Below the pieces are notes generated by a model that ran no database searches, was not told the origin of the DNA, and saw only the letters and a program-made list of their open reading frames with translations. This document shows, in pieces, positions 24,297-63,707 of a stretch of 64,000 nt of DNA; the first letter of the stretch is position 1, and each line of letters begins with the position of its first letter. A program made the position numbers and the translations under genes. Source of the DNA: a virus; IMG/VR virus record IMGVR_UViG_3300042868_008033, positions 1 through 64,000 of that record; one strand, 5' to 3'.

Positions 24297-24597
24297 GGTT
24301 GGTTATTCTGTTACGAGGAAACCAACCGAAACCCTAGTCAGCGTTTAGGCTGCCAATGCGAACTGTGAGTCGTTTGCGTTTACTTTGATTTAGTTTTAAC
24401 ATCTTCTCTGATGAGCTGTCCACTTCTGTACTATTTGCCCTGTCGAAACTATGCAGGCCCATCAGAAGCATACTAGCACATAGACTTAACTATGAATTGT
24501 GGGTTTCAAGACCACTAATATGCTTATGGTGGACCTGGGGGGATTCGCACCCCCGTCCAGAACACATTTCTAGTTGCTTCATACAACCATAACATTA
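24297..24597 (-). ncRNA. ssrA: Circularly permuted (two-piece) tmRNA
   Basis: On the minus strand the acceptor piece comes first and ends GGUCCACCA at 24527, with T arm GGGGG-TGCGAAT-CCCCC at 24554-24538. A 66-nt intervening segment (24526-24461) is closed by an 11-bp inverted repeat (24515-24525 with 24466-24476). The coding piece then begins GGGCCTG at 24460, which pairs with CAGGTCC of the acceptor piece to form the 7-bp acceptor stem, and has the usual TTTCGACAGGG. The tag frame, 24377-24345, encodes ANDSQFALAA then TAA, preceded by AGTAAAC. A stem GGTTGGTT/AACCAACC closes the 3' part. tmRNA rescues stalled ribosomes and tags nascent chains. The permuted form is typical of Burkholderiales, alphaproteobacteria and cyanobacteria; the tag is beta-like. 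Confidence 0.93.
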
Positions 24598-24603
24598 TTT
24601 ATT

Positions 24604-24632
24604 ATTGTAACACAACCGCAATATCATGTCAA
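24604..24632 (-). promoter_or_regulatory. tmRNA promoter (TTGACA-N17-TACAAT)
   Basis: -35 TTGACA at 24632-24627 and -10 TACAAT at 24609-24604, spacer 17 bp. The predicted start near 24597 is just upstream of the acceptor piece, so the tmRNA has its own sigma70-type promoter. Confidence 0.8.
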
Positions 24633-41564: not shown

Positions 41565-41888
41565 TTAGGCTTCAGCAGTTTCAGTAGTTGTTGGTTGTGC
41601 AACAGGTGTTGTTTTAGGTGCGCCAACATAACGACCATTCTTATCAAACTCGGTATAATTAACCAACTGATATGCTGTTACAGCACGGCCGGTTTTATGC
41701 ACCTTGATGATACCGCCATCTTTGCGGATGTTATAGATGTTTGTGGATAAGCGATAGAGAACCGCTTCTTGATCCGTGCCTTTGAAACAGGACTTAATCT
41801 CATCTGGAGATACAGGTTTACCTGACAAAAGGGTTACGGTGATTTTTTCGTGGCGATTTTGTTTGCCTGAGCGAACGGTGTTTGACAT
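41565..41888 (-). CDS. Small winged-helix-like protein of unknown function
   Basis: 107 residues from ATG 41888 behind AAAGGA (the upstream ATG carries the site). HEKITVTLLSGKPVSPDEI, LYRLSTNIYNIRKDGGIIKV looks like a helix-turn-wing, so DNA binding is possible. Thr/Pro-rich tail. Served by the 41933-41961 promoter. Confidence 0.6.
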   Translation of the reverse strand: MSNTVRSGKQNRHEKITVTLLSGKPVSPDEIKSCFKGTDQEAVLYRLSTNIYNIRKDGGIIKVHKTGRAVTAYQLVNYTEFDKNGRYVGAPKTTPVAQPTTTETAEA

Positions 41889-41932
41889 TTTAAGTCCTTT
41901 CAAAATTACATGATAAGAGTACCAACATATGA

Positions 41933-41961
41933 ATTATAACACAAAGATGGCATGTTGGCAA
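41933..41961 (-). promoter_or_regulatory. Early promoter (TTGCCA-N17-TATAAT)
   Basis: -35 TTGCCA at 41961-41956 and -10 TATAAT at 41938-41933. Same -35 variant as the early promoter family at 43-55 kb, without AGTACT boxes. Confidence 0.8.
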
Positions 41962-41984
41962 CCATCCAGTGTTGTTTTTTTACA

Positions 41985-43127
41985 TCAGAATGGAATTTCA
42001 TCCGTATTTACCACCGTAGGGGCTTTTCCTACGGGAGCATCAACTTTCGCATCAACCTTGGAATACAAGTCGAGGAACGCCATTTTGGTGTCTGTGTCGA
42101 ACCGTGCCACGCATAGTTCAATAGCTTTCATTCGGTCGCCAAAGATTTTAAATGCTTTAGCAATGTGGACCAAACGGCGTGTGGAGATAACTTCATCAAC
42201 AGCACCTTGGTCAAATGATTGTCGAACAATATCAGCCCATTGTGTCAACTTCTCAACAAAATCCTGGTCAGCAATCAATGGTGAAAGTATTTTCTTTTCA
42301 GTCTTAACATCAGGATATTCCTGTTCAACTGTAATAGGGAAACGTTCTAGGAATGCATCATCTAGAATCTGTGAAAGGTAACGACCTTCTTCACTACCAC
42401 GACCTTTAGTGTTTGCAGTAGCAATGACGTTGAACCCATCTTTTGGATATACCATCTCACCGTTTTTCTTGTTGTAGTATGGTTTGCCTTCTAAGATACC
42501 TTGCAAACACATCAACTTATTAGAACCACGGTCAACTTCATCAATCAACAGAATGGCGCCACGCTTCATTGCTGTAATAACAGGACCGTCACGATTAACA
42601 ACGTTCCCATTAACAAGAGTAGGACCACCGAGCAAATCCGATTCATCAGTTTCAATACTAATGTTAACTCTAATGCACTCCCGCCCGAGCTCCGAGCAAG
42701 ATTGTTCCACCATGAGGGTTTTACCATTACCTGAAAGGCCTGTAATGAACACAGGATAAAACAAATCAGACTTAATGATATTACGCAAATCTTTAAAAAA
42801 TCCAAATGGCACATAATCTTTATACTTTGTAGGAATTGATACGTCAGAGTCATCAACTAGTTTAGGTTGTTTGAATTCTAAAACTTGTGCAGCCAATGCA
42901 ATTTCAAGTTCAGGTTCTTTAACAATTGTTTTCTTGGTGCCGATGTTAGGCAATTTATATTCTCCTCGACCAACTCTATAATCAGACTTGGTTACAAACC
43001 AGTGTGGAAAAGAAAGGTCATTTTCTTCAATAACTTGTTGAATGCCGTCACGGGTCAAAATAGAACCTGTGCCATACAATTCTTCGGCTGCTTTAACAAA
43101 AGCGGTTTGATTGCGGTTTAAACTCAT
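41985..43127 (-). CDS. cobS: CobS-like AAA+ ATPase (MoxR/CobS family)
   Basis: 380 residues. Walker A FITGLSGNGKTLMVEQ, Walker B AILLIDEVDRGSN, sensor VIATANTKGRGS and the arginine-finger region DDAFLERFPITVEQEY. T4-like marine phages carry this CobS-like gene together with a CobT-like VWA protein, here at 61441-63531. The pair resembles MoxR/VWA chaperones rather than a true cobaltochelatase (CobN is absent). Confidence 0.85.
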   Translation of the reverse strand: MSLNRNQTAFVKAAEELYGTGSILTRDGIQQVIEENDLSFPHWFVTKSDYRVGRGEYKLPNIGTKKTIVKEPELEIALAAQVLEFKQPKLVDDSDVSIPTKYKDYVPFGFFKDLRNIIKSDLFYPVFITGLSGNGKTLMVEQSCSELGRECIRVNISIETDESDLLGGPTLVNGNVVNRDGPVITAMKRGAILLIDEVDRGSNKLMCLQGILEGKPYYNKKNGEMVYPKDGFNVIATANTKGRGSEEGRYLSQILDDAFLERFPITVEQEYPDVKTEKKILSPLIADQDFVEKLTQWADIVRQSFDQGAVDEVISTRRLVHIAKAFKIFGDRMKAIELCVARFDTDTKMAFLDLYSKVDAKVDAPVGKAPTVVNTDEIPF

Positions 43128-43160: not shown

Positions 43161-43189
43161 ATTATACATGAAAATCAACTCAATGGCAA
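43161..43189 (-). promoter_or_regulatory. Early promoter (TTGCCA-N17-TATAAT) with AGTACT box
   Basis: -35 TTGCCA at 43189-43184, -10 TATAAT at 43166-43161. AGTACT abuts the -35 on its upstream side. Drives cobS. Confidence 0.85.
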
Positions 43190-47586: not shown

Positions 47587-47655
47587 ATTATATCAGAAAT
47601 AATACCAACTGGCAACCATGTTGTTGTTAACCTACAACAGTAGTACTTTAGTACT
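47587..47655 (-). promoter_or_regulatory. rIIA early promoter (TTGCCA-N17-TATAAT) with double AGTACT box
   Basis: -35 TTGCCA at 47615-47610, -10 TATAAT at 47592-47587. A perfect inverted/direct pair AGTACT-AA-AGTACT lies 25-40 nt further upstream (47641-47655). Confidence 0.9.
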
Positions 47656-47657
47656 AA

Positions 47658-47891
47658 TCAATGATATCCACCATAACAATGTTCCGTAACATAACTGACA
47701 ACTGCTTGGCGACCATCATCATTCAAATTGAATACATCAATTGGATGTTTAAAATTAAAATGCATATTTGGACTATCCCACCATCTATCTACCAATTCTT
47801 GGCGACCAAGCAATGCCATCAGCATATTATCACAATCAGCCTTTTGCAAAGCGTGTTGTATTTTATTTTGAACTTCTCTTTTGCGCCACAT
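47658..47891 (-). CDS. Small phage protein, unknown function
   Basis: 77 residues from ATG 47891 behind GGAG. Begins MWRKREVQNKIQHALQKAD, later HPIDVFNLNDDGRQAVVSYV. No domain known. It overlaps the upstream gene's stop by 2 nt or less. Confidence 0.6.
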   Translation of the reverse strand: MWRKREVQNKIQHALQKADCDNMLMALLGRQELVDRWWDSPNMHFNFKHPIDVFNLNDDGRQAVVSYVTEHCYGGYH

Positions 47892-47893
47892 AA

Positions 47894-48175
47894 TTAACTC
47901 CAAGTCCTGTGACGTTCAGCCACCCATTCTCTACCATCATATTCCTCAATGTACCAGTCTACATCATCAGGAACTTCTACGATTTTTAAATCTGAGAAAT
48001 CACCACCAGCATCGGTACCATATTCTTCAATCATTGCCACAAGGTCTGGACAATCACGGGGAATATCATAATACCAAAATCTTTCATCAGTAATACCAGC
48101 ACGGTTTTTATATTCATCTAATGCAGCCTCAGATAAACCAAAACCACCATGACACGCATTTATAACAACTTTCAT
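47894..48175 (-). CDS. Conserved phage protein (MKVVIN-x-C family)
   Basis: 93 residues. MKVVINACHGGFGLSEAAL, CPDLVAMIEEYGTDAGG, VPDDVDWYIEEYDGREWVAE, RHRTW: a signature widely conserved in phages of diverse hosts. Function unknown. Confidence 0.75.
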   Translation of the reverse strand: MKVVINACHGGFGLSEAALDEYKNRAGITDERFWYYDIPRDCPDLVAMIEEYGTDAGGDFSDLKIVEVPDDVDWYIEEYDGREWVAERHRTWS

Positions 48176-48178
48176 TCT

Positions 48179-48391
48179 TCAACTCCGAAATGTTTTATTA
48201 ATCTTATCCGCACAATAATGGCCATCCATTCCTTTGTCACCTAGTTCCTCACATATGGTTAGGCATTCCATAACAATCAACTCGGCGAACTTTTCAGGAT
48301 CATCAATGGTATACTCGGGCCAAGTATGCTGATTGCCGCTATTATAGTGACCGCCGGCCTGTGACCAAAGTTCTTTAATTCTTTCGTTCAT
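48179..48391 (-). CDS. MNERI-family small protein, copy 1
   Basis: 70 residues: MNERIKELWSQAGGHY, then EKFAELIVMECLTICEELGD. Tandem duplicate of the next gene, ending with almost the same INKTFRS/IKGTFRS motif. A 22-bp identical DNA segment flanks both copies. Confidence 0.7.
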   Translation of the reverse strand: MNERIKELWSQAGGHYNSGNQHTWPEYTIDDPEKFAELIVMECLTICEELGDKGMDGHYCADKINKTFRS

Positions 48392-48394
48392 TCT

Positions 48395-48589
48395 TCAACT
48401 CCGAAATGTTCCTTTGATTCCACTCCAACAGGCAAGCGCAGAGTTATCTTTTTTCATAACATCTTCACAGATTTTCATACATTCCCATACAATCAACTCG
48501 GCGAATTGTTCCAATTCAAATTCAATCGCATGGTTAGACCACTCGGGGAAACCTGCCTCGATGGAAAGTTGTTTGATTCTTTCATTCAT
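48395..48589 (-). CDS. MNERI-family small protein, copy 2
   Basis: 64 residues: MNERIKQLSIEAGFPEW, EQFAELIVWECMKICEDV, ending GIKGTFRS. Adjacent paralogue of 48179-48391, 3 nt apart. Function unknown. Confidence 0.7.
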   Translation of the reverse strand: MNERIKQLSIEAGFPEWSNHAIEFELEQFAELIVWECMKICEDVMKKDNSALACWSGIKGTFRS

Positions 48590-48601
48590 AATTTTACCTG
48601 A

Positions 48602-49480
48602 TTAACCACAAATTGCATACTCAGCCAAATCAGACCAGTTTTTACCTGCGCCTTGGCGAATCTTTGTTACCTGAATCAGTGTACGGAGCGATAACTCTTT
48701 AACTGAATCTTGGTGTTTCTCAATCAAATTCATAGCATCAGTCTTAACGACCTTATCAAACTCAGGCATAAACTCACCTGTAGACAACAGGTGGCGCATA
48801 CGTTCGACCTTTTGCTTTGTGGTCATTGACAAGTCAACAGCCAATGAACGGGTCAGGATAGCCTGGTCAATATTGGATGCGGACAAGTTGGAGATAAACA
48901 CAACACGACCTTTGAATTCGAAGGATGTAGGCAAATCTTCATCTTTGATATCCGCTCTCCATGAAATGATACGGCGTGAATATGAATCAAGCGCACCTTT
49001 GAGCAGGTTCAATGATGTAGGATCCTTGAGTACGGAATCACAATCATCAAACACAATAACACCATCTTTATTTTCATAAAGTGTGCGGTACAGGCCTTTA
49101 GGTGTTGAATAACCTTTGATGACACGGAATGTCTTGGCAGTCTTAAGGACGGTACCAACAGCGATATCATCAAGCACGGATACATCTTTGAAACCAAGTG
49201 CTGTCAACGTTTGTGACACGGTAAAAGACTTACCAAGACCACCAGGACCAGTCACAACAACGGATGCTTGTGCGCCGTTAGCAAGCATAGTAACCATATC
49301 AGACACAAAACCGAAGCGTTGGTTAATACTAAAACGGGACTCAAGCACAGGTGCAACAGAATTGGATTCTGATTGTGCCTTACGGATGACATAATCCATA
49401 TGCGCCTTGTTTGAACGCTTTACAGTCTTGCCGTTGATAACAGCAACATACTTACCACCAACAAATTTCACATCAATCAT
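48602..49480 (-). CDS. AAA+ ATPase, third
   Basis: 292 residues. Walker A VVTGPGGLGKSFTVSQTL, Walker B GVIVFDDCDSVLKD, sensor VVFISNLSASNID. The N-terminal ~45 residues (KFVGGKYVAVINGKTVKRS) are a small KOW-like or unknown domain. Own early promoter, and a good site (AGGAG). Function unknown. Confidence 0.8.
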   Translation of the reverse strand: MIDVKFVGGKYVAVINGKTVKRSNKAHMDYVIRKAQSESNSVAPVLESRFSINQRFGFVSDMVTMLANGAQASVVVTGPGGLGKSFTVSQTLTALGFKDVSVLDDIAVGTVLKTAKTFRVIKGYSTPKGLYRTLYENKDGVIVFDDCDSVLKDPTSLNLLKGALDSYSRRIISWRADIKDEDLPTSFEFKGRVVFISNLSASNIDQAILTRSLAVDLSMTTKQKVERMRHLLSTGEFMPEFDKVVKTDAMNLIEKHQDSVKELSLRTLIQVTKIRQGAGKNWSDLAEYAICG

Positions 49481-49508
49481 CGTTACTCCTAATCAATCAA
49501 TACTACGT

Positions 49509-49558
49509 ATTCTACAGGTTCTGGTAGAAAAGGCAAGCCTAATACTTTAGTACTCAAG
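49509..49558 (-). promoter_or_regulatory. Early promoter (TTGCCT-N16-TAGAAT) with upstream AGTACT/AATACT boxes
   Basis: -35 TTGCCT at 49536-49531, -10 TAGAAT at 49514-49509. Upstream GAGTACT-AA-AGTATT at 49554-49542, and AATACTTGACC 21 nt further up. Drives the 292-aa AAA+ gene. Confidence 0.8.
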
Positions 49559-49566
49559 CAGTCTGG

Positions 49567-49731
49567 TCAAGTATTCTTCTTGGAACGCTTCGGTTTCTCT
49601 GCTTCAGCAACCATTGCTGCCCGCTTTTCCGTTGCGTCCACCCACTCCTGGTGGTCTGCAACCAGTTTTTTGTACTCATCATATGTGACAACGGCATCAT
49701 TCCAACGATAGGTAAACGTTTCTGGATCCAT
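49567..49731 (-). CDS. Small 54-aa protein (short gene)
   Basis: A frame of 54 residues starting MDPETFTYRW, then VDATEKRAAMVAEAEK and a basic end KPKRSKKNT. Closely packed between neighbours in the same direction, coding-like composition. Its stop overlaps the distal box of the next promoter. A real early gene is likely; no homology known. Confidence 0.6.
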   Translation of the reverse strand: MDPETFTYRWNDAVVTYDEYKKLVADHQEWVDATEKRAAMVAEAEKPKRSKKNT

Positions 49732-49734
49732 ATA

Positions 49735-49941
49735 TTATACGGACTTTCCTGTCGCTAAGTGTACTACGGCAGCTGGGAATAAGACTGCCACCGCCAATTC
49801 CAAGAGGTCTGGATCCAGTTTGTCATTACTTGCAAGGCGTTCTATAGTCTTGGTCATGACCCATGGACGGCGGTCAAGAAAACGGAGAGCTGAATCTAAT
49901 GCAAAATCTTGTGCATATGAAATTTCTAATTCATAATTCAT
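49735..49941 (-). CDS. Small protein of unknown function
   Basis: 68 residues from ATG 49941, overlapping the upstream stop by 4 nt. DPDLLELAVAVLFPAAVVHL is a hydrophobic segment. Unrecognised. Confidence 0.55.
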   Translation of the reverse strand: MNYELEISYAQDFALDSALRFLDRRPWVMTKTIERLASNDKLDPDLLELAVAVLFPAAVVHLATGKSV

Positions 49942-50159
49942 ACTGTCACACCCCAATATTTCATAACACGTTCCAAACAATATAAATGGTCTGTGATTTC
50001 ACCAATGTCCTTGGCTTCATCAATATCAAATATTGCAAAACCACGACCTTCAGCACGATTCACCAAATCCTGTTTTAGTGATTCATATGTACTTTGCAAT
50101 TCCGTTTGTATGATACCATCAACGGTATCCCAATCCAATTCAACAGTTACTTTTTTCAT
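49938..50159 (-). CDS. Small conserved phage protein
   Basis: 73 residues: KKVTVELDWDTVDGII, YESLKQDLVNRAEG, ending HLYCLERVMKYWGV. I recall this arrangement from T4-like cyanophages. Function unknown. Confidence 0.65.
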   Translation of the reverse strand: MKKVTVELDWDTVDGIIQTELQSTYESLKQDLVNRAEGRGFAIFDIDEAKDIGEITDHLYCLERVMKYWGVTV

Positions 50160-50168
50160 AATTAATCC

Positions 50169-50348
50169 TTAATCCTTACTGGGGGGCACCGCAATTATAT
50201 AACAACGTTGATTTCTTGGCAAATCTTTTTCACATTCCATTAATTCTGTGTCCATAATTTTGCCATTAGCAAAATACCCAGTGGGTGACAATACAATCCA
50301 TGAAATGGTAATCATGATGCCAATTATAATGCCAATTATTATATTCAC
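50169..50348 (-). CDS. Small single-pass membrane protein
   Basis: 59 residues from GTG 50348 behind GGTGG; ATG at 50366 would overlap the next gene. A long hydrophobic helix (IIIGIIIGIMITISWIVL) leads to a polar domain with two cysteines (ELMECEKDLPRNQRCYI). Signal-anchor type. Function unknown. Confidence 0.5.
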   Translation of the reverse strand: MNIIIGIIIGIMITISWIVLSPTGYFANGKIMDTELMECEKDLPRNQRCYIIAVPPSKD

Positions 50349-50349
50349 A

Positions 50350-50742
50350 TTACCACCATGAATCATAGTAAACGGCATCGCCTACAGCAATAGCTGCCAT
50401 TGCCTTGCCAATGAATTCCATATCCTGTGCAACAGAATCAGGATCAGGTGGATTATTACCAAAGAAGAAACCAACTGTTTCAGGCAATCGGCCTTTTGTC
50501 ACATCCATTGCCAATGATTGCAGGTCTTCCATTGTCAATCGTACAGGCACACAATTAAACGATTCTTTATCGCCGCCTTTTGAACGATATAGGCGTTCCA
50601 TCCAACCATGGAGGTCGTGGTGCTTACGCCAATATGCCAATTCTTCTAAATCATCTTCACGACCAGCGTCCTGACCACGCACATTAAAATCATCAATCAC
50701 ATCTTCCGCTTTTACACGGAATGCGTACATATCTAAACCCAT
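50350..50742 (-). CDS. Conserved MGLDMYAF family protein
   Basis: 130 residues. MGLDMYAF and YWRKHHDLHGWMERLY are the marks of a small family common in phages and bacteria; a Trp-Arg-Lys-His core may bind nucleic acid or nucleotides. Function unknown. Confidence 0.65.
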   Translation of the reverse strand: MGLDMYAFRVKAEDVIDDFNVRGQDAGREDDLEELAYWRKHHDLHGWMERLYRSKGGDKESFNCVPVRLTMEDLQSLAMDVTKGRLPETVGFFFGNNPPDPDSVAQDMEFIGKAMAAIAVGDAVYYDSWW

Positions 50743-50743
50743 T

Positions 50744-51205
50744 TTAAACTCCCATAACAGTTTTATAAATTGAATGAAACAACTCAGGATTGGCAGTGCA
50801 AGCAGAGTGTGAAAAATCTATAATAGAAAGTTTTGATTTCATTTCATTATCTTTTTTGGCTTTACGTTCAGCACGTTGCTTTGGTCCTAAAACCTTGCCG
50901 GCGTGGTCACCATTGCCACCACGGGTTGTCCATTCTAAATTTGATACATCATTATTCAATTTGTTGCCATCTAAATGATTAACAATTTCTAAATTTTTAC
51001 GATTGGTTATAAATGATATTGCAATCAATCGGTGGACTTGAAATGTTTTCTTTTCCTTTCCATTAGAAAATCCAACATTATAATAACCAGTTGTGCCTTT
51101 GGTTTGAGTCAATTCAACCAATTCACCACGTTTTTTTGAAAACACACGACCATCGGTGCTGACCGAATAATCTTCCCAACCTGCAATTTTTTTAGTCTTA
51201 ATCAT
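50744..51205 (-). CDS. HNH homing endonuclease (NUMOD4 + HNH)
   Basis: 153 residues. NUMOD4-type DNA-binding start (GWEDYSVSTDGRVFSKKRGE), HNH core VHRLIAISFI and VNHLDGNKLNNDVSNLEW. The C-terminal 60 residues are basic. Free-standing homing endonucleases of this kind move between phage genomes; overlap with the downstream gene is 4 nt. Confidence 0.85.
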   Translation of the reverse strand: MIKTKKIAGWEDYSVSTDGRVFSKKRGELVELTQTKGTTGYYNVGFSNGKEKKTFQVHRLIAISFITNRKNLEIVNHLDGNKLNNDVSNLEWTTRGGNGDHAGKVLGPKQRAERKAKKDNEMKSKLSIIDFSHSACTANPELFHSIYKTVMGV

Positions 51206-51729
51206 TTTAACACAATGCCTTCCACATTATACTTTTTCTTCAAAAATGACAAACACGCTTCAGGTGTTGGTCGTGCTGCTTCTTGTTTGCCATTCATCAT
51301 AGCAACCCACTTTTGACGATCCGCACGGAAGAATACAGTACCATCAGGATACGTTGTTTTGGTGCCTTTTACAATAGAACCAACAGTGGTATTGCCAACT
51401 TTTGAAATAACCAGTTTGGTTGGTGTCACTGTACGTTGGCGTGCCATCTTACGTGATGCAGGTTTTGCTTTGGCGACTTTTGGTGTCTTAACTTCAGGAT
51501 CAGCAACACCTGTACTAGGGTTGAATCGTGGGCCGGTCATAGGACCTACCCATGGGAAGAAACCAACAGGCGATGGACGACCAACAAATGACAATGCTTC
51601 AGTCATATCAGACCCACACATTGACCAAGAATCGGTTTCTGCATCATACCAGCGATAATACTTACCTTGCATCCCACGGTCGACCAAATACATGGCAGTT
51701 TGTGGGGGTTTACCAGTTTGAAATTCCAT
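51202..51729 (-). CDS. Phage protein with C-terminal AP2-like region
   Basis: 175 residues from ATG 51729 behind AGGAG; the ATG at 51753 overlaps the -10 box. N-terminal YYRWYDAETDSWSMCGSDM and C-terminal GTVFFRADRQKWVAMMNGK then PEACLSFLKKKYN, the latter like the AP2-type beta-sheet that often accompanies HNH genes. Possibly DNA-binding. Confidence 0.6.
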   Translation of the reverse strand: MEFQTGKPPQTAMYLVDRGMQGKYYRWYDAETDSWSMCGSDMTEALSFVGRPSPVGFFPWVGPMTGPRFNPSTGVADPEVKTPKVAKAKPASRKMARQRTVTPTKLVISKVGNTTVGSIVKGTKTTYPDGTVFFRADRQKWVAMMNGKQEAARPTPEACLSFLKKKYNVEGIVLK

Positions 51730-51751
51730 AATATCTCCTATTGAATGTGTC

Positions 51752-51800
51752 ATTATACATGAATCCTAGGTAATGGCAACCTTAATACTAAAGTACTCCA
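51752..51800 (-). promoter_or_regulatory. Early promoter (TTGCCA-N16-TATAAT) with upstream boxes
   Basis: -35 TTGCCA at 51779-51774, -10 TATAAT at 51757-51752. GAGTACT-TT-AGTATT lies just upstream (51799-51786) and AATACTTGACC farther, 21 nt away. The -10 covers a false upstream ATG. Confidence 0.88.
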
Positions 51801-51816
51801 TCTCCTAGGTCAAGTA

Positions 51817-51996
51817 TTATTGCATTGCGAATTTTTCCATTTTTGTTGGTGTATACAGGCGCTGGGTCAATAACGGATATTCTTTCCGTGATTTAATCTC
51901 GCCAATATTCAATTCTGCCAAACACTGCAAACCAAAATTACTAAATTTAGCGCCTGACAACACATCCAACATATAAATCCAATGTAAATCTTTCAT
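51817..51996 (-). CDS. Small 59-aa protein (short gene)
   Basis: Starts MKDLHWIYMLDVLSGAKFSN and ends in YTPTKMEKFAMQ. Its ATG overlaps the upstream stop by 4 nt (ATGA), which strongly supports translation. Function unknown. Confidence 0.65.
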   Translation of the reverse strand: MKDLHWIYMLDVLSGAKFSNFGLQCLAELNIGEIKSRKEYPLLTQRLYTPTKMEKFAMQ

Positions 51997-52199
51997 TCGA
52001 TATCCCTATCCCATTCTAATGCTTCTAAAGCGTCAATAATACATGAATCAGCAACACTCATTTGTGATGCAACTTCGGCGTTTGTCTTTAATGGCGACAC
52101 CTGCAGCCCATTGGACATTGGTGTTTCCGCCCAATGATATACATCCGCAAGCAATGCCTGCGCCTGTTCTAGTTTTGCAACCAATTCTGAGTTAGTCAT
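51993..52199 (-). CDS. Small protein of unknown function
   Basis: 68 residues, helical: NSELVAKLEQAQALLADVYHWAE with a later ADSCIIDALEALEWD. Part of the early cluster. No domain known. Confidence 0.6.
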   Translation of the reverse strand: MTNSELVAKLEQAQALLADVYHWAETPMSNGLQVSPLKTNAEVASQMSVADSCIIDALEALEWDRDIE

Positions 52200-52209
52200 T
52201 ACTTTTACC

Positions 52210-52431
52210 TTAATCTAAAAGAACCATATATTCTGCTGGATAATGTTTGCGAAACCAATCCAGTCCTTTGCGAACCATTTTGTAGTCGCCTGTCATCTCA
52301 CAACCCATTATGGTGTCATATACTGCAACCGCTTCAGGCGTCAGCATTACACCTTCACCAGAAAACGGATTCTTTACCTCGACAGATTCCTTATCGAGCA
52401 CCATACAATCAAACGGCAATTTTACCTTCAT
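52210..52431 (-). CDS. Small protein of unknown function
   Basis: 73 residues: CMVLDKESVEVKNPFSGEG, TPEAVAVYDTIMGCE, GLDWFRKHYPAEYMVLL. The pattern resembles small phage proteins of unknown role. Confidence 0.6.
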   Translation of the reverse strand: MKVKLPFDCMVLDKESVEVKNPFSGEGVMLTPEAVAVYDTIMGCEMTGDYKMVRKGLDWFRKHYPAEYMVLLD

Positions 52432-52443
52432 TACAATCTCCTA

Positions 52444-52647
52444 TTAACAATCTGGATCAAAATCGTGCCATTCCTGCGCTTCGTCAGGTTGGCCGTCATA
52501 TTCATCACATTCCATATCCACTTCAGGCAGATATGATTCTAATACCTTTGCAGGCACTCGCTTCAGCAATTCTTCCAATGCTGTCACATCACCAGATTCA
52601 ATATCTAATTGAATTTGTGTAATAACTTTATCAACCAATTCATCCAT
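52444..52647 (-). CDS. Small acidic protein
   Basis: 67 residues: DVTALEELLKRVPAKVLESY, then very acidic CDEYDGQPDEAQEWHDFDPD. Conserved in style with small proteins next to MNERI genes. Function unknown. Confidence 0.6.
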   Translation of the reverse strand: MDELVDKVITQIQLDIESGDVTALEELLKRVPAKVLESYLPEVDMECDEYDGQPDEAQEWHDFDPDC

Positions 52648-52655
52648 TTTTTACC

Positions 52656-52778
52656 TCACGCTTCATTAATTGAATAAACAACAAAACCTAACTCATTCGC
52701 TACCTCATATGCTGTTTCCAGATTAGGTGCTTCGATTAAGTCACAGCCGGACTCATGTTCAACAAAATATTCATTCAT
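52656..52778 (-). CDS. Very small 40-aa protein (short gene)
   Basis: Starts MNEYFVEHESGCDLIEAPN and ends in VANELGFVVYSINEA. Preceded by AGGTAAAATT before the ATG, and packed between coding genes. Probably a real micro-gene; function unknown. Confidence 0.5.
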   Translation of the reverse strand: MNEYFVEHESGCDLIEAPNLETAYEVANELGFVVYSINEA

Positions 52779-52790
52779 AATTTTACCTGA

Positions 52791-53054
52791 TTAAAGATAG
52801 GATTCTTCTAACTCAACAATTTGCACATGAATTTCAGCAATATCATCTGCATCCAATTCTGGATCCATGCGGTCGAGGTCATATTGCAAATCTTCAATTT
52901 GTGAATCAATGATTTCATTCACCATCATACGATATGCAATTGGATCAAGACGCTTCACAATCTCGGAACGTGAAAACGTCAAATTACCGATAATAACGTC
53001 ACCGTCACAATCCAACATTTCATCTATCATTTCGATAATCGCTTCGTTTCGCAT
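52791..53054 (-). CDS. Small acidic helical protein
   Basis: 87 residues: MRNEAIIEMIDEMLDCDGD, DLQYDLDRMDPELDADDIAE. Calcium-loop-like Asp/Glu richness but no EF-hand. First gene after an early promoter. Unknown. Confidence 0.6.
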   Translation of the reverse strand: MRNEAIIEMIDEMLDCDGDVIIGNLTFSRSEIVKRLDPIAYRMMVNEIIDSQIEDLQYDLDRMDPELDADDIAEIHVQIVELEESYL

Positions 53055-53083
53055 TTTATTTTACCTCACTGATTTAAAACACA

Positions 53084-53159
53084 ATTATACCAGATTTTAC
53101 CTGACTTGGCAACCTAATACCATAGTACTCCATTTGTTTGCTGGAGTACTACAGTATTA
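53084..53159 (-). promoter_or_regulatory. Early promoter (TTGCCA-N17-TATAAT) with two AGTACT boxes
   Basis: -35 TTGCCA at 53112-53107, -10 TATAAT at 53089-53084. Upstream GAGTACT-AT-GGTATT next to the -35, and AATACTGTAGTACTCC further up. Confidence 0.88.
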
Positions 53160-53164
53160 CCTGA

Positions 53165-53419
53165 CTATCGTGGGTATACTGCAAAAGTAGTAGCATCCGA
53201 CTGCAAACAACTGCTTTGGCGAGTATTTTGTGAACGAAAGGTTCTATGAACCCGAGGACCACGATACCTTAGTTTTACTTTTTGACCAACAGCTTTGTAA
53301 TACTTCAGTACACGTTCCCGCATTTCAACAGGCACGCCTTTGAATAAGGAAGTATTACTTGGACTGCGATACAACTCATACAGTACATGAAAAGTTCTAA
53401 CTTTATCTTCAAATGTCAT
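53165..53419 (-). CDS. Small basic protein
   Basis: 84 residues, MTFEDKVRTFHVLYELYRSP, then basic VGQKVKLRYRGPRVHRTFRS. May bind nucleic acid. Unknown. Confidence 0.55.
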   Translation of the reverse strand: MTFEDKVRTFHVLYELYRSPSNTSLFKGVPVEMRERVLKYYKAVGQKVKLRYRGPRVHRTFRSQNTRQSSCLQSDATTFAVYPR

Positions 53420-53428
53420 ACTTTTTAC

Positions 53429-53590
53429 TCACATTCCTGCTTCTTCAAGACACGCCAACTCGGCTAGTAACTCTTCCGTACTCATCATTGGCAGAATTGT
53501 AGTAGCATAGGTCACAAATTTATCGGGGTCTGAATACCCTTGCATTACAATATGCTCAATAATGAGTGCTAAAGTTTCGTTTTTTGTCAT
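53429..53590 (-). CDS. Small 53-aa protein (short gene)
   Basis: MTKNETLALIIEHIVMQGYS followed by FVTYATTILPMMSTEELLAE, then ELACLEEAGM. Good site GAGAGAG before ATG and its own promoter at 53618-53646. Real gene likely; function unknown. Confidence 0.65.
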   Translation of the reverse strand: MTKNETLALIIEHIVMQGYSDPDKFVTYATTILPMMSTEELLAELACLEEAGM

Positions 53591-53617
53591 TTTCTCTCTC
53601 AACCGTTTAAAAATACC

Positions 53618-53646
53618 ATTCTATCATAGAATCCGACAACTGGCAA
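53618..53646 (-). promoter_or_regulatory. Early promoter (TTGCCA-N17-TAGAAT)
   Basis: -35 TTGCCA at 53646-53641, -10 TAGAAT at 53623-53618. Upstream GAGAACT-AT-AGTACTCAGG replaces the usual boxes. Confidence 0.82.
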
Positions 53647-53663
53647 CCTGAGTACTATAGTTC

Positions 53664-54029
53664 TCAAGCCGACTGCTGTGATAATAAAGTATTAACTGAT
53701 TCACGTATAACGTCAACATAAGTTCTAATGTTATCAAAAGAATTCATTATCTCAGTATCAGTAGTACTAAAGATTTCATTTTCACAATGTTCTAAGATAT
53801 ACTTAACATTCTGGTACAGATTAATACTTTCGTTCTTAATACTTTCGATTGACTCGTAACGTTCAATCAAAAGTTGTAATTCCTCAGCAGAATCACGTAT
53901 GTCAGAAAAATGTATTACATCTAACATATCACCAGTAAAACCTTCTTCTACATTTTCAGTTTCAGCAATAATACTTTCCGTTGCATTGTAGATTGTATCA
54001 CCAAAGATACCTAAGTCAATAGTATTCAT
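53664..54029 (-). CDS. Small acidic helical protein
   Basis: 121 residues from ATG 54029; ATG 54059 would leave no leader after the promoter. GFTGDMLDVIHFSDIRDSAE, ELQLLIERYESIESIKN. No domain. Function unknown. Confidence 0.6.
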   Translation of the reverse strand: MNTIDLGIFGDTIYNATESIIAETENVEEGFTGDMLDVIHFSDIRDSAEELQLLIERYESIESIKNESINLYQNVKYILEHCENEIFSTTDTEIMNSFDNIRTYVDVIRESVNTLLSQQSA

Positions 54030-54066
54030 TTTCGCTCTTTCATCATTGTTTGTTGTCATGTGTTAC

Positions 54067-54094
54067 ATTATACAGGTTTTTTATGAAATGGCAA
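54067..54094 (-). promoter_or_regulatory. Early promoter (TTGCCA-N16-TATAAT)
   Basis: -35 TTGCCA at 54094-54089, -10 TATAAT at 54072-54067. A weaker box follows and an AGTACT sits ~35 nt upstream at 54127-54132. Confidence 0.85.
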
Positions 54095-54436
54095 TATAAG
54101 AGAAAAGTCTTACATTATGGCCATGGAGTACTAAAGTTGCTGTGGATAAGTCTGTGTATAAAATGTGCATAAGTCGCAGATGCTGTGGATATGCTGTGGA
54201 TAACTTTACCTGACTAGTTAATGAGTACTTCCGTTGTAACCTGCATCCAGGTGTACTGAGAAAGTATTAGTAATCCGCATAAAATACTGCAAAAGTGTCA
54301 TAAAGTGCAATTTTGTGTGCTTTAGTGTTACCAGCGCACCTGGCTTCGCAAGTTACCTGTAAGAAACAAGTCTTAGTCTCTGTCTGCGATGGCACCTCAA
54401 AGCATTACAAAGCGTTTCTCGGTACTACAAAGGTTC
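54095..54436. other. Non-coding region with DnaA-box-like array (candidate replication origin)
   Basis: About 340 nt without a convincing gene. It contains five direct 9-mers matching DnaA boxes: TGTGGATAA (54141-54149), TGTGTATAA (54153), TGTGCATAA (54164), TGTGGATAT (54184), TGTGGATAA (54195-54203). Starts are spaced 12, 11, 20 and 11 bp, so they sit on one helix face. T4-like phages normally do not use DnaA, so either an origin bound by host DnaA, a DnaA sink, or a DnaA-regulated early promoter is possible. One GTG-started frame of 42 aa (54267-54395) is not convincing. Confidence 0.6.
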
Positions 54437-54628
54437 TCAGAAGCGCTCTAGTTCGCCATTGAATACTTTTGTTTCAAAATCATAGATAATACATTGTACT
54501 TCATCAGCAAAGCCCAACTCACACAAAAGTTTACACTCCTGTATGAATGCTTCATGGCCTAAACCAAAAGTATACAGCATTTCTTCCAACTCTTGTAATT
54601 GAATACTAATTTCTGACATTTTGCCCAT
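54437..54628 (-). CDS. Small protein of unknown function
   Basis: 63 residues from ATG 54628 behind AGGAG; the ATG at 54664 overlaps the -10. EISIQLQELEEMLYTFGLGH, ECKLLCELGFADEVQCIIYD. Unknown. Confidence 0.65.
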   Translation of the reverse strand: MGKMSEISIQLQELEEMLYTFGLGHEAFIQECKLLCELGFADEVQCIIYDFETKVFNGELERF

Positions 54629-54655
54629 GTAATGCTCCTGTGTTAATATGTGGGT

Positions 54656-54684
54656 ATTATACAATAAAACCGAGAGTTTGGCAA
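54656..54684 (-). promoter_or_regulatory. Early promoter (TTGCCA-N17-TATAAT) with AGTACT boxes
   Basis: -35 TTGCCA at 54684-54679, -10 TATAAT at 54661-54656. GAGTACTTTTTCAGTATA next to the -35 and GGAAGTACTC farther upstream (to 54726). Confidence 0.88.
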
Positions 54685-54778
54685 TATACTGAAAAAGTAC
54701 TCCATTGCCGAGCTAGAGTACTTCCGTTTTCAACGCCCAGCCCCAGCGTCCACCCCAGTCTGCTTTCGAATAGGTGCT

Positions 54779-54806
54779 ATTATACAGGAACCAGACAGGT
54801 TGGCAA
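54779..54806 (-). promoter_or_regulatory. Orphan leftward early promoter (TTGCCA-N16-TATAAT)
   Basis: -35 TTGCCA at 54806-54801, -10 TATAAT at 54784-54779. No gene lies between it and the next promoter; the predicted transcript would begin with a G-rich ~60-nt stretch (54778-54720). It may add to the downstream gene or make a small RNA. Boxes GAGTACT and AATACTTGACC lie upstream, shared with the divergent plus promoter. Confidence 0.75.
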
Positions 54807-54855
54807 TATAGCGCAATAGTACTCAAGCAATCCGGTCAAGTATTCCAGATAACGC

Positions 54856-54884
54856 TTGCCATTTCCTGCAGGATCGGTTATACT
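54856..54884 (+). promoter_or_regulatory. Early promoter on plus strand (TTGCCA-N17-TATACT)
   Basis: -35 TTGCCA at 54856-54861, -10 TATACT at 54879-54884. Leader contains ccatcaaatcaagaaagc, also found before the 215-aa gene. Confidence 0.85.
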
Positions 54885-54914
54885 TTGTCCATCAAATCAA
54901 GAAAGCGAGAAAAT

Positions 54915-55172
54915 ATGACCGAATTCGAAAAGCAGTGCTACGGTATGTCAACAGCAGCGATCCGTGAGCAGTATATGAAAAGCTTTACTGCCAAGCACGT
55001 TGGTCTGGAAATGGTGTGCATGAGCATATTGTCGGACGCTCAGGAATTGCTGGCGATGGGTGCAACCAATGATTCCCGCCAATATATGAACCGTGCTAAA
55101 TTCATCCTTTGCGAAATACAGGACCAGCGTGAAGCGGCCGGCCGCCTGTTGGATGAATTGACCACAGAATAA
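54915..55172 (+). CDS. Small helical protein of unknown function
   Basis: 85 residues from ATG 54915, chosen because it follows the promoter leader with AAGAAAGCGAG; the longer frame begins upstream of the promoter. EFEKQCYGMSTAAIREQYM, DAQELLAMGATND, EIQDQREAAGRLLDEL. Different codon style and G+C than the flanking minus genes. Function unknown. Confidence 0.65.
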   Translation: MTEFEKQCYGMSTAAIREQYMKSFTAKHVGLEMVCMSILSDAQELLAMGATNDSRQYMNRAKFILCEIQDQREAAGRLLDELTTE

Positions 55173-55205
55173 CACTACAGGCAACTGGAAGAAAAAAGTT
55201 TACAG

Positions 55206-55233
55206 TTGCCATTTTCACCAAATCTGGTATAAT
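55206..55233 (+). promoter_or_regulatory. Strong early promoter on plus strand (TTGCCA-N16-TATAAT)
   Basis: -35 TTGCCA at 55206-55211, -10 TATAAT at 55228-55233, followed by an A/C-rich leader and AAAGGA before ATG 55267. Confidence 0.88.
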
Positions 55234-55266
55234 TGACTCTTACAAACAAACAAACAAAGGAAAAAA

Positions 55267-55602
55267 ATGTTTACATTCGCATGTGGTTCGGTTGAAGGTT
55301 TAACTCTCACTCAAAAGCGTGAGACCCTGAAGGCGCTCAAGGCGTCAATTAAGCTCGAGGTTGAAACCAAAAAGGCTTTGCGTGGTCTTGCTGCTGACGC
55401 TAAACTGAAGGCTGCTGCTGAAAAGCGTGAAGCCGCTATCGCTAAGGCACAAGCTCGCCTTGAGAAGCTGCTTGCTAAGCAAGTTGGTGCTGTAGGCGCT
55501 AAGGCAGTGAAAGCCAACAAGCGCCCAAGCAAAGGCGTGGTGTTCGGTGCTGAGGACAATGCTATTGCTGCTGCCATCATGGCTCGCAAAGCAACAGCGT
55601 AA
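55267..55602 (+). CDS. Ala/Lys-rich helical protein, possible DNA-binding H-NS-like architecture
   Basis: 111 residues. A long helix (LKALKASIKLEVETKKAL, AAAEKREAAIAKAQARLEKL) is followed by a basic, Gly/Lys tail (KAVKANKRPSKGVVFGAEDN). The shape, coiled N-terminal part and basic C-terminal part, is like nucleoid or xenogeneic-silencing proteins, but no H-NS motif is present. Strong promoter and site predict high early expression. Function unknown. Confidence 0.55.
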   Translation: MFTFACGSVEGLTLTQKRETLKALKASIKLEVETKKALRGLAADAKLKAAAEKREAAIAKAQARLEKLLAKQVGAVGAKAVKANKRPSKGVVFGAEDNAIAAAIMARKATA

Positions 55603-55604
55603 CC

Positions 55605-55660
55605 ATTCGGGTGCTGCGAGGAACGCAGCAACACCAAAAGCCGGTGCCAACACCGGCGCT
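55605..55660 (+). other. Two adjacent hairpins in a 150-nt spacer
   Basis: Stem 1 TGCTGCG/CGCAGCA (55612-55618 and 55624-55630). Stem 2 GCCGGTG/CACCGGC with CCAA loop (55640-55657). No T-run follows, so not a classical terminator; may shield the mRNA or form a small RNA structure. The remaining 55661-55740 has no feature I can see. Confidence 0.6.
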
Positions 55661-55756
55661 CGAGTGTAAGGCAAAGGGATCGGATCCCAGAGGCCGCCAG
55701 TTGGAAAATTACTGGCACAGTATTTGAAAACAAAAGTTAACAATTTAGGAGTTAGT

Positions 55757-55888
55757 ATGAATGTATTCATTTTTGTGACTGGTTCTTTGGTCGGCGCATA
55801 TTATAACACCGCCGTGCTGTCGGTGGCAAGCGCTTGTGCTGGTGCTTGCACTAGAGGTGCCGAGTTAATACTCCAGCTGGTGGCTTGA
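55757..55888 (+). CDS. Very small 43-aa hydrophobic protein
   Basis: MNVFIFVTGSLVGAYYNTAV then SVASACAGACTRGA, ATG behind GGAG at ideal spacing. N-terminal hydrophobic; small membrane or secreted peptide. Function unknown. Confidence 0.55.
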   Translation: MNVFIFVTGSLVGAYYNTAVLSVASACAGACTRGAELILQLVA

Positions 55889-55904
55889 GTTAAAAAGTAT
55901 TAGG

Positions 55905-55932
55905 TTGCCATTTTCGGTGGCCGTGTTATACT
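55905..55932 (+). promoter_or_regulatory. Early promoter on plus strand (TTGCCA-N16-TATACT)
   Basis: -35 TTGCCA at 55905-55910, -10 TATACT at 55927-55932. Upstream TTGAGTTAAAAAGTATTAGG matches the box family on the other strand. Confidence 0.85.
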
Positions 55933-55962: not shown

Positions 55963-56610
55963 ATGAACAAATTATCCAAAACCTCAAAGCTCGACAATAT
56001 CCTCAGCTGGTCCCTTCAGGCTCTCGAAACCTGCCAAGGTTCTATTGGTGCGGATGGTGAGCTCGTTCCCGCTTGTGCTGGTTGCTACGCCACGCAAGGC
56101 ACATATAATTTCCCTGGCACCAAAAAAGTGCGCTTCGATAATAAGCAAGCATGGCAGGATGATGCTTGGGTGGATACAATGGTTGCTGCTCTCAAAAAGC
56201 AAAGCTACTTCCGCTGGTTTGATTCTGGCGATATGTACTCCATACAGTTAGCGCTCAAAATGTATGCTGTGATGGTTAAGACCCCCCACGTGAAGCACTG
56301 GTTGCCCACACGGATGCACAAATTCGCTAAGTATCAGCAGGTGCTCACCAAAATGGCTGCTCTGCCTAATGTGATGGTGCGCCCTAGCAGTGATGCTATA
56401 AATGGCACATATACTGCTGGTGTACATGGTAGCACTATATTGCCAGAAGGTATGCCGGTGCCTGCTGGTGTTAAGGTTTGCACGGCACCAACTACAAATG
56501 GCAAGTGCTCTGGTTGCCGTGCTTGCTATTCTAAAGAGGTCCCAGTGGTTGCATATATTGCCCACGGCCGCAAAATGGCAAAAGTTATTCGGTTGGCAGT
56601 GGCTGCTTAA
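55963..56610 (+). CDS. GP88-like Cys-containing phage protein
   Basis: 215 residues. SWSLQALETCQGSIGADGEL, CAGCYATQGTYNFPGTKKV, YFRWFDSGDMYSIQLAL and CSGCRACYSKEVPVVAY: the pattern of the GP88/DUF5131-like family of mycobacteriophages and others, with cysteines C38xxC41 near the start and a CxxCxxC near the end. A fold related to TIM barrels or metal-bound enzymes is possible. Function unknown. Codon use differs from the minus genes, suggesting recent transfer. Confidence 0.7.
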   Translation: MNKLSKTSKLDNILSWSLQALETCQGSIGADGELVPACAGCYATQGTYNFPGTKKVRFDNKQAWQDDAWVDTMVAALKKQSYFRWFDSGDMYSIQLALKMYAVMVKTPHVKHWLPTRMHKFAKYQQVLTKMAALPNVMVRPSSDAINGTYTAGVHGSTILPEGMPVPAGVKVCTAPTTNGKCSGCRACYSKEVPVVAYIAHGRKMAKVIRLAVAA

Positions 56611-61440: not shown

Positions 61441-63531
61441 CTATGTAATAAGTCCGATAAAACGATTCAGTACAACACGACTGTTATGTTTGCCATTATT
61501 GTACTTTGTAAATGCAGAGGCAATACCTCTGAAGGTTGAGTTTTCTTTAACTTCGAAAGTAGAATCCTCATCGGTATCTAGGCCATTTGACCGCAAGATA
61601 TAGTACTCATCATATCCAGTATTCTCCAGAATGGCAAACTTAGATTTTCTAAAATTGTCCTTCATTTCTTCGTGGTTCATTTGTTTCGGAAACCACTGAT
61701 GCACTTTACGGTTAAAATCTCTACCATTGATAACATAAAAACCAATAACATTAGAACCAGTTCTTGCTTTCAACAAACGAATGAAAGCATTTGTCTGTGC
61801 TTCGTAACCATTTTTACCATCAATCTTTTCTTCATGTTTGGTAACAGGATCACGAATAACTAATCTTTCACACTTCATGTGTACATCTGTTAGTCCGTAA
61901 TAAGAATCTTTTTGTAAATAACGGTTAGCATTATTACTTTCACCGTCTGTTAGAAAAATTGTATTGACAATCTGTAATTTGTTTTTCTTTTGAAATTCAG
62001 GAACGATAGTCATTGCATGAACGATTGCTTGGTTCAGGGGTGTGCCTTGCATATGCATCCAATGGGGGAAATAACCACGGACTTTGCCTAGACCAGCCAT
62101 ACAAACTAATGATGAACCTGCATAAGTGAACTCGGAACTAGACATCCTAGATGATAATAGGTTCATCAAACCATAAGGTTTGAAATATATGTCATTTTCT
62201 TTTGGTGTTTGTTTGGTTAGTTTTTCCGTTTCGGTGTCTTCAACAAAAGCAAACACTTCATAGGGTATGTTCATTTTCTTGCAGAACAATACCAAATTGA
62301 TTAATTGTTTCATTGTGTTACCGATGTGGTCAATCATAGAACCAGACCAATCGAGGAACATAACAAGTCCGTGTGATTTACCACCAGGAACAACCGAGAT
62401 TTTCTTAAAGATATCTTCACTGAAACCATAAGAGTAAATCTTATTCATATTCAACTCACCAGTTTTGGCAGTTGTTGTGCGTTTCAACTGGTCAGCATTC
62501 TTACGCATTTCAAATTCTTTAACAAGGTAGGAAACTACTTTGTTACTTTCATTTCGAATTTTAAGGAATGTTTCTGTTGAAGAACTGAAGTTTTCTTCTT
62601 TGTATCTTTTCCAAATATATTTGTGGTCAACAACATCTTTTGGATTAAAATATGGAATATTTGCGTATATAATATTACTCAAACTATTGTCAAAAAGTTG
62701 CTTTTCGTTTTCTTTATAGGCAGCATCAGTAAAAGAACGAATCTGGTCTTCCAGGCTTACTTTCTTATCTTCTTCTACAGAATCAAATTCATCACCATCA
62801 GATTGTTTGTTAGATTCAACCTCTTGTTCTTCTACATCTTCACCATCTTCAAAAGTTTGTTCTTTTGAATTGCCTTGGTCATCAAAATCAACTTCTTCAT
62901 ATTCTGATTCGTCTTCATCTTCACCATCATCATTGTTTTCAGCTTTAGCTTTAGCACGCTTTTGTTCTTCTTCTTCTAATCTGCGTTTCATGTATTTGAT
63001 AATTTTCTTCGATACATCAATAACATCATCATAGGTTTCGGTGGTTTCAACTTCATTAAGCAAACCACGTTCTTCATCATTGAATTCAATACGTAATGCT
63101 GCGCCGCCTTTGCAGTGCAGGTTAATGCGGTCAAGAAAATTCATCTTGTTGATATCTGTTCCTTTGATACCAAAGAAATCTCTACTCATAAGCTCACCAT
63201 AAGCTTTGACGAATGAATTTTTAAGGCCTGGATATTTGTATTTGATTTTGCGTTCAATACGGGAATCTTCAACCACATTAGATACATCTCTGATAACCTT
63301 TTCATCTCTTGCTTTCAACATACCATCCATAGGCGTATAGAGAGCATGGCCAACTTCATGTCCTGTAAAAAGGTCATAAAGAGCACTAGAGATATTTTTA
63401 TCCAGTACCGGAAGTGTCAAAATCCGATTCTTAACGTCAAAAGATGCTGTTGGTACCGGACGTTGTTCAACAACAAGGTTCTCGGTTGCCATCAATTTGG
63501 CTAAAAGTGATTTTGATTCAAGTAATTCCAT
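61441..63531 (-). CDS. cobT: CobT-like VWA-domain protein with HExxH motif
   Basis: 696 residues. The N-terminal region has H58-E-V-G-H62 in LFTGHEVGHALYTPMDG, like zinc metallopeptidases. Residues ~190-270 are an acidic low-complexity linker (DDGEDEDESEYEEVDFDD). The C-terminal VWA domain carries MIDAS residues LDWSGSMIDHIGN (D-x-S-x-S) and FLTDGESNNANR. Together with the CobS-like ATPase (41985-43127) it matches the CobS/CobT pair of T4-like environmental phages. Function not settled; no CobN chelatase subunit is seen. Confidence 0.85.
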   Translation of the reverse strand: MELLESKSLLAKLMATENLVVEQRPVPTASFDVKNRILTLPVLDKNISSALYDLFTGHEVGHALYTPMDGMLKARDEKVIRDVSNVVEDSRIERKIKYKYPGLKNSFVKAYGELMSRDFFGIKGTDINKMNFLDRINLHCKGGAALRIEFNDEERGLLNEVETTETYDDVIDVSKKIIKYMKRRLEEEEQKRAKAKAENNDDGEDEDESEYEEVDFDDQGNSKEQTFEDGEDVEEQEVESNKQSDGDEFDSVEEDKKVSLEDQIRSFTDAAYKENEKQLFDNSLSNIIYANIPYFNPKDVVDHKYIWKRYKEENFSSSTETFLKIRNESNKVVSYLVKEFEMRKNADQLKRTTTAKTGELNMNKIYSYGFSEDIFKKISVVPGGKSHGLVMFLDWSGSMIDHIGNTMKQLINLVLFCKKMNIPYEVFAFVEDTETEKLTKQTPKENDIYFKPYGLMNLLSSRMSSSEFTYAGSSLVCMAGLGKVRGYFPHWMHMQGTPLNQAIVHAMTIVPEFQKKNKLQIVNTIFLTDGESNNANRYLQKDSYYGLTDVHMKCERLVIRDPVTKHEEKIDGKNGYEAQTNAFIRLLKARTGSNVIGFYVINGRDFNRKVHQWFPKQMNHEEMKDNFRKSKFAILENTGYDEYYILRSNGLDTDEDSTFEVKENSTFRGIASAFTKYNNGKHNSRVVLNRFIGLIT

Positions 63532-63707
63532 TATTTTTTCTCAGTCATAATAATAACATTGCCTGTTGGAGTTTCTTCAACTCTCATATTTAACACAGTG
63601 CCTTCTTTCCAGCCTGTTTCAGCAAGCAATTCATCAGGAAATTGTAAGATTGCATCGCCGGTGCCGTCATTCGCTTCTTGCAAATCAATAATATATCTCT
63701 TACTCAT
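63531..63707 (-). CDS. AbrB/MazE-like small protein (short gene)
   Basis: 58 residues: GDAILQFPDELLAETGW, KEGTVLNMRVEETPTGN, VIIMTEK. This is the swapped-hairpin AbrB pattern found in small phage proteins. Its stop shares bases with the cobT ATG (TAATG). Probably DNA-binding. Confidence 0.7.
   Translation of the reverse strand: MSKRYIIDLQEANDGTGDAILQFPDELLAETGWKEGTVLNMRVEETPTGNVIIMTEKK

Follow-up and report, generated by a model that had tools for sequence, protein, structure and literature searches.

What reads the conserved boxes that lie upstream of the promoters between positions 47,587 and 55,932 of the IMG/VR virus record IMGVR_UViG_3300042868_008033? The stretch that we analysed (the window) comprises the first 64 kb of this 87,253-base phage record (L082), and its genes include those for RIIA, baseplate and CobS-like proteins. 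The boxes turn out to be the two halves of a single inverted repeat, called E1 hereafter. We give a probability of roughly 0.55 to the interpretation that E1 is a type-1 operator bound by IscR, an iron-sulfur (Fe-S) regulator of the host, which would likely activate the associated promoters, whose -35 hexamer is TTGCCA.

The exact sequence TTGCCA-N16/17-TATAAT was found 10 times between 41 and 57 kb, compared with 0.01 expected (no more than 1 in any of 200 first-order Markov simulations), and neither in 1-41 kb nor in 57-64 kb. The relaxed form TTGCCW plus TAKAMT gave 14 matches (0.05 expected). We accepted 13 promoters in the window, 10 on the minus and 3 on the plus strand, leaving out one match located within an open reading frame (ORF; 50194-50222) and one with an 18-nt spacer (55800-55829). 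This agrees with the first-pass annotation, which had proposed a shared family of at least twelve promoters on both strands. Hexamers of the -35 and -10 type were thus 16-18 nt apart more often than by chance, and, judged by this arrangement, the TTGCCA/TATAAT sites are promoters for the host sigma-70 RNA polymerase. The -10 ended about 30 nt ahead of the start codon for most of them (some starts were reassigned by eye). They are probably early promoters, a label taken from gene position and the sigma-70-type sequence alone. For comparison, we used 80 related loci from environmental contigs, several of them 157-180 kb long, which were recruited via the AAA gene at 48602-49480; sampling around this one gene was our choice. 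The TTGCCA family was conserved across about 50 related phage contigs, with 316 TTGCCW sites in total and 197 once near-copies were removed, and conservation extended beyond the hexamers to a GG or similar pair ahead of TTG. As a separate observation, the entire spacer of the 16-nt class was conserved (about TTTCCNCYGGTTCCTG), with a TG adjoining the -10 or one base before it, in both of the clades described below.

In the window, AATACTTGACC occurred 3 times (0.01 expected), and A[AG]TACT-N15-AGTA[CT]T was counted 10 times over both strands (0.01 expected; a symmetric site is counted twice). The spacing of 21 nt between the AGTACT-type box and AATACTTGACC had been described correctly. The string GAGTACT-NN-AGTATT-AGG, said to be present at many promoters, has a single exact match in the record, located at 49.5 kb. 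At 51.8 kb its place is taken by AGTATTAAGG and at 53.1 kb by GGTATTAGG, together with AGTACTCCAGC instead of AATACTTGACC, while at 54.8 kb the third box is replaced by ATTGCGCTATA. When gapped palindromes were counted ahead of 427 non-redundant promoters, with no motif assumed, two dyad classes emerged, E1 and E2. E1 (TTGAC-7-GTCAA / TGACC-5-GGTCA / ATACT-23-AGTAT) was found mainly with TTGCCA and was cleanest in the relatives, where it forms a 25-27-bp dyad, (A)ATACTTGACC-N5-GGTCAAGTAT(T). Its left half corresponds to AATACTTGACC, and the AGTACT located 21 nt further on is the end of its right half. The two boxes, which had been described as lying two helical turns apart, are thus one inverted repeat rather than two independent elements, and 21 nt is its half-to-half distance. 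In L019, both halves were altered alike (ATAGTCCACC-ACCAC-GGTGGACTA), as expected of a dimer site. Motif discovery, which the first-pass annotation had recommended, was run on the approximately 50 related contigs and supports the dyad.

E1 resembles the type-1 operators that IscR binds at proteobacterial iscR promoters, for which the published consensus is ATASYYGACTRWWWYAGTCRRSTAT (PMC6599224): both are 25-bp dyads with a half-site ATA[CG]YTGAC, the same degenerate positions vary, and both are located at sigma-70-type promoters. A functional iscR site of P. aeruginosa is ATAGTTGACCTAATTACTCGGATAA, and the IscR sites of this species show 68% and 76% identity to the type-1 consensus (PMC6599224). 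In the orthologues of the AAA-gene promoter, the left half is ATACTTGACC or ATAGTTGACC, i.e., C or G at the S position of that consensus, and the half-site of distant relatives agrees with iscR promoters column by column (these sites having been chosen by score). The E1 consensus of the relatives thus agrees with the one for IscR type-1 sites. We also made a blind scan of 84,980 genomes, one per species, for exact TACTTGACC-N5-GGTCAAGTA. This gave 12 stretches, 7 of which were in Pseudoalteromonas, and in the two genomes of this genus that were examined (2/2) the dyad was upstream of iscR, in the iscR promoter. The Pseudoalteromonas matches probably count as one locus, and because a few chance matches are expected at this scale, those in other phyla carry no weight. 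The Comamonas IscR motif (PMC5744064) was too degenerate for testing.

A symmetric matrix was then built from 19 bacterial iscR-promoter sites only, among which there was no iscR promoter of a confirmed betaproteobacterium, and a threshold of 8 bits was chosen by us. Sites of at least 8 bits were present at 36 of 204 TTGCCA promoters, against an average of 0.57 (at most 7) over 150 matrices with permuted columns. In the lineage of the window, the figure was 11 of 76 promoters, versus 0.19 for permuted matrices. The best matches of the matrix were located directly upstream of promoters in several phages (the top 3 in G010, the top 5 in L026, 5 of the top 6 in L079), and in the present record this was the case for ranks 1 and 3. 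Among the top 15 matches, 3 were upstream of promoters in G010, 6 in L026, 6 in L079, 4 in G002, and 3 in G000, compared with 0.1-0.63 expected.

The position of the dyads was also biased. Relative to the initial base of the -35, 13 of the 47 matrix sites of at least 8 bits have their centre at -16, 24 have it between -23 and -26, and another 4 at -33/-34, i.e., in three clusters about one helical turn apart. E2 sites likewise favoured -15/-16 and -24/-25. That two unrelated dyads share these locations beyond the core promoter points to contact with RNA polymerase. The -25 class has an AT-rich gap of 12 nt, often reading WAGTATTAGG. No Rrf2-family (IscR-family) gene was found in 13 phage records, several of them fragments, and the genes specific to the TTGCCA, dyad-bearing phages included no evident DNA-binding protein. 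Host IscR is therefore the simplest candidate binder. We propose that a dimer of host IscR, an Fe-S sensor, would bind the E1 dyad in phages devoid of their own IscR and would presumably also recognize the diverged AGTACT dyads of the present lineage. Because the centre of the dyad precedes the -35 by about 16, 25, or 34 bp, IscR bound there would be in contact with RNA polymerase and would most likely act as an activator where the -35 is sub-optimal; the AT-rich gap of the -25 class could seat an alpha-subunit domain. The genes driven by these promoters would then respond to the Fe-S state of the host.

Several findings weigh against this proposal. Only three sites of the window (at 54.8, 49.5, and 51.8 kb, serving four promoters) fit the iscR matrix well; the other dyads score near or below zero and appear as diverged versions at the same position. 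None of the top 15 matrix matches was upstream of a promoter in G004, G006, G007, G008, or G009, and strong matrix sites were not commoner genome-wide in these phages. With the degenerate published consensus alone, the two best sites of the window reach 19/25 and 18/25, at a chance level of 15.8 matches of at least 18/25; the 19 such matches that were found are not a significant excess, and we rejected this consensus as sole evidence. Adjacent position classes are closer to 9 than to 10.5 bp apart, and the helical-turn interpretation is somewhat weakened by this. Finally, in E. coli holo-IscR represses iscR, its type-1 promoter (PMC4055776), counter to activation.

This last point leads to an explanation that we consider somewhat unlikely, namely that host IscR is a brake: [2Fe-2S]-IscR would hold the promoters down in Fe-S-replete cells and release them upon loss of the cluster through infection or stress. 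Repression of the E. coli isc operon by holo-IscR (PMC4055776) is in line with this, as is site A of P. aeruginosa iscR, which lies at -43 to -67 (PMC6599224), near the location of the phage dyads. However, the phage dyads are upstream of the -35 rather than covering it, phased positions would not be needed for a simple roadblock, and the -35 is weak, not strong.

It is, in our view, improbable that the dyads, or at least those of the present lineage with their drifted half-site AGTACTC(C/A)AGC, are targets of a phage-encoded regulator and owe their likeness to iscR sites to convergence or ancestry. The poor fit of most window dyads to the iscR matrix would be explained in this way, the phages do have conserved small proteins that look DNA-binding, and the parallel change of both halves in L019 is what a changed specificity would produce. 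Yet none of the genes found only in the dyad-bearing phages seems to encode a DNA-binding protein, and the column-by-column agreement of the distant relatives with iscR promoters, at sites chosen by score, also speaks against this alternative.

UP elements are A/T tracts, and the first-pass annotation had considered either a binding protein or an UP-like element; a dedicated DNA-binding protein appears likely, while an UP-like element does not hold as the main feature. That the boxes are UP-like elements touched by the alpha subunit of RNA polymerase, without a regulator of their own, is very improbable: many promoters have an AT-rich segment beside the -35 and some dyad-less ones carry A-tracts (55.2 kb), but the chief element, an inverted repeat whose half-sites contain GC (TTGACC/GGTCAA), varies symmetrically and matches iscR promoters. 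A/T tracts at about -40 to -60 were not the main conserved feature, A-tracts being present at some promoters only. A second, tandem promoter (TTGACC-N17-TAGTAT) fits some sites only and was rejected in view of the dyad of the relatives. A ribbon-helix-helix regulator on 8-bp tandem AGTACT boxes would leave the TTGACC half unexplained, and no gene for such a protein was noticed by eye among the small ORFs of the closest long relative.

The second dyad class, E2, is TGTTGY-N6-RCAACA with an AT-rich N6, and it was found with both -35 types at positions like those of E1. It was strongest in the TTGACA clade, where TGTTG-N8-CAACA was present at 49 promoters (1.5 expected). At the orthologous promoter of the AAA gene, most TTGCCA phages have E1 at -23 to -26 or at -16, and TTGACN phages mostly have E2 at -23 to -29. 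Dyad class and -35 type shift together at this promoter, with exceptions such as L031, which has a weak E2-like match with TTGCCA; elsewhere, E1 co-occurs with TTGACA (L211, L230, L239, L252, L268). The change between TTGCCA and TTGACN was clade-wide, over whole promoter sets (L002-L081). Our guess is that the -35 of the TTGCCA clade is weaker and needs the help of an activator. For E2, and not for E1, a candidate binder is a 112-residue protein, the structural model of which (predicted local distance difference test score 79; order H-H-H-E-E) has mostly winged-helix DNA-binding proteins as its best structure matches, none of them below an E value of 0.001. The promoter of its gene is itself within an inverted repeat, GATGG-TTGCCAACATG-CCATC (41925-41970 and orthologues), and the arms of this repeat covary among relatives, ATGG/CCAT being extended by varying paired bases.

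Table 1. Promoters, dyads, and candidate binder in the window (dyad centres are counted from the -35; scores are for the bacterial iscR matrix)
Feature	Position	Strand	Remarks
112-residue protein, predicted winged-helix DNA-binding fold	41565..41903	-	conserved in both clades
Promoter TTGCCA-N17-TATAAT	41933..41961	-	112-residue protein gene
Promoter TTGCCA-N17-TATAAT	43161..43189	-	CobS-like ATPase gene 41985-43127
Promoter TTGCCA-N17-TATAAT	47587..47615	-	rIIA
E2 dyad TGTTGT-N6-ACAACA	47622..47639		upstream of rIIA promoter; palindrome counting
Promoter TTGCCT-N16-TAGAAT	49509..49536	-	AAA gene 48602-49480
IscR-type dyad	49550..49574		AAA-gene promoter; 10.6 bits, rank 3 in record; centre -26; orthologues in relatives up to 22-23 bits
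Promoter TTGCCA-N16-TATAAT	51752..51779	-	
IscR-type dyad with intact left half ATACTTGACC and diverged right half	51793..51817		7.3 bits; centre -26
Promoter TTGCCA-N17-TATAAT	53084..53112	-	
Diverged dyad GTACTCCAGC-AAACA-AATGGAGTAC	53125..53149		1.5 bits; centre -25; extra AATACT-NN box farther out
Promoter TTGCCA-N17-TAGAAT	53618..53646	-	
Promoter TTGCCA-N16-TATAAT	54067..54094	-	
Promoter TTGCCA-N17-TATAAT	54656..54684	-	
Diverged dyad GTACTCTAGC-TCGGC-AATGGAGTAC	54697..54721		-1.0 bits; centre -25
Promoter TTGCCA-N16-TATAAT	54779..54806	-	shares dyad 54819-54843 with 54856 promoter
Best IscR-type dyad of window (GTACTCAAGCAATCCGGTCAAGTAT)	54819..54843		common to two face-to-face promoters; 14.8 bits, rank 1 in 87-kb record; centre -25 from both; 19/25 of type-1 consensus
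Promoter TTGCCA-N17-TATACT	54856..54884	+	shares dyad 54819-54843 with 54779 promoter
Promoter TTGCCA-N16-TATAAT	55206..55233	+	no dyad; UP-like upstream A-tract (GAAGAAAAAAGTTTACAG-TTGCCA)
Diverged dyad ATACTCCAGC-TGGTG-GCTTGAGTTA	55868..55892		-1.9 bits; centre -25
Promoter TTGCCA-N16-TATACT	55905..55932	+	GP88-family gene 55963-56610

The only clue to the host is a phage-encoded permuted transfer-messenger RNA (tmRNA) of the betaproteobacterial type (24272-24646, minus strand; tag ANDSQFALAA). Permuted tmRNAs were also present in 7 of 8 other long phage records, which carry about 24-28 transfer RNA genes per record. In a sample of 369 genomes, one had a beta-type permuted tmRNA, and its order is mostly without IscR. 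A near DNA search of a cultured-phage collection gave a short rIIA match and nothing else. Genes resembling IscU and IscA/ErpA, which function in Fe-S assembly, were recognized by eye, with no family search, beyond the window in the same record (L082:9302-9983, minus strand). A link between the boxes and IscU/IscA genes was rejected: such genes are found in G000, G001, and G002, also in G006 of the TTGACA clade, and not in G004, G009, or G010, and do not track the distribution of the boxes. A non-coding stretch flanked by putative early promoters (54141-54203, minus strand) is a possible replication origin: it contains DnaA boxes, two of them exact (TTATCCACA) and others related to these; a pair is also present in G001 and a cluster in G004. 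A 58-residue protein of phrog_661 (63531-63707, minus strand), conserved in many relatives, is AbrB/MazE-like by eye and has no Pfam match.

The early promoters of T4 are also of the host sigma-70 type, with short leaders and arrays of small ORFs near rII, and they differ from the present ones in the TTGCCA -35 and the upstream dyads found here. In a 39-kb stretch of T4, no iscR-matrix site was found upstream of sigma-70-like sites, a weak control because only 4 such sites were found. Unlike bacterial IscR type-1 operators, the phage sites belong to a lytic phage, serve many promoters at once, are phased upstream of the -35, and have GACC rather than GACT beside the spacer, most sites of the window being diverged. 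The closest precedent is the control of Alphaproteobacteria phages by host CtrA (Mascolo et al. 2022, PMC9437464), where sites for a host regulator are likewise concentrated at phage promoters and are proposed to read the state of the host. The two cases differ in the signal (Fe-S status versus cell cycle), in the regulator, in the T4-like nature of the phages, and in the operator swap between clades; the CtrA sites are backed by binding experiments, and the IscR-type phage sites by sequence analysis. Searches of the open-access literature, which leaves out most subscription journals, turned up no prior description of IscR sites at phage promoters.

On a bolder reading, which we consider less likely than not, a large group of freshwater T4-like phages of Betaproteobacteria would have its early programme under plug-in, helically phased operators, host IscR boxes in one clade and TGTTGY-N6-RCAACA in another, matching a clade-wide switch of the -35 from TTGACN to TTGCCA, with lytic expression gated by the Fe-S status of the host. 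The sites suggest that this lake phage group reads the Fe-S state of its host at the start of infection. If this is true, lytic T4-like phages would wire many promoters to a metabolic sensor of the host, phage gene expression in lakes would be tied to iron, oxygen, and oxidative stress, and there would be a sequence signature predicting Fe-S gating from metagenomes. A swap of operators at orthologous promoters, accompanied by a genome-wide change of one -35 base, offers a natural experiment in the transfer of a promoter set from one regulator to another.

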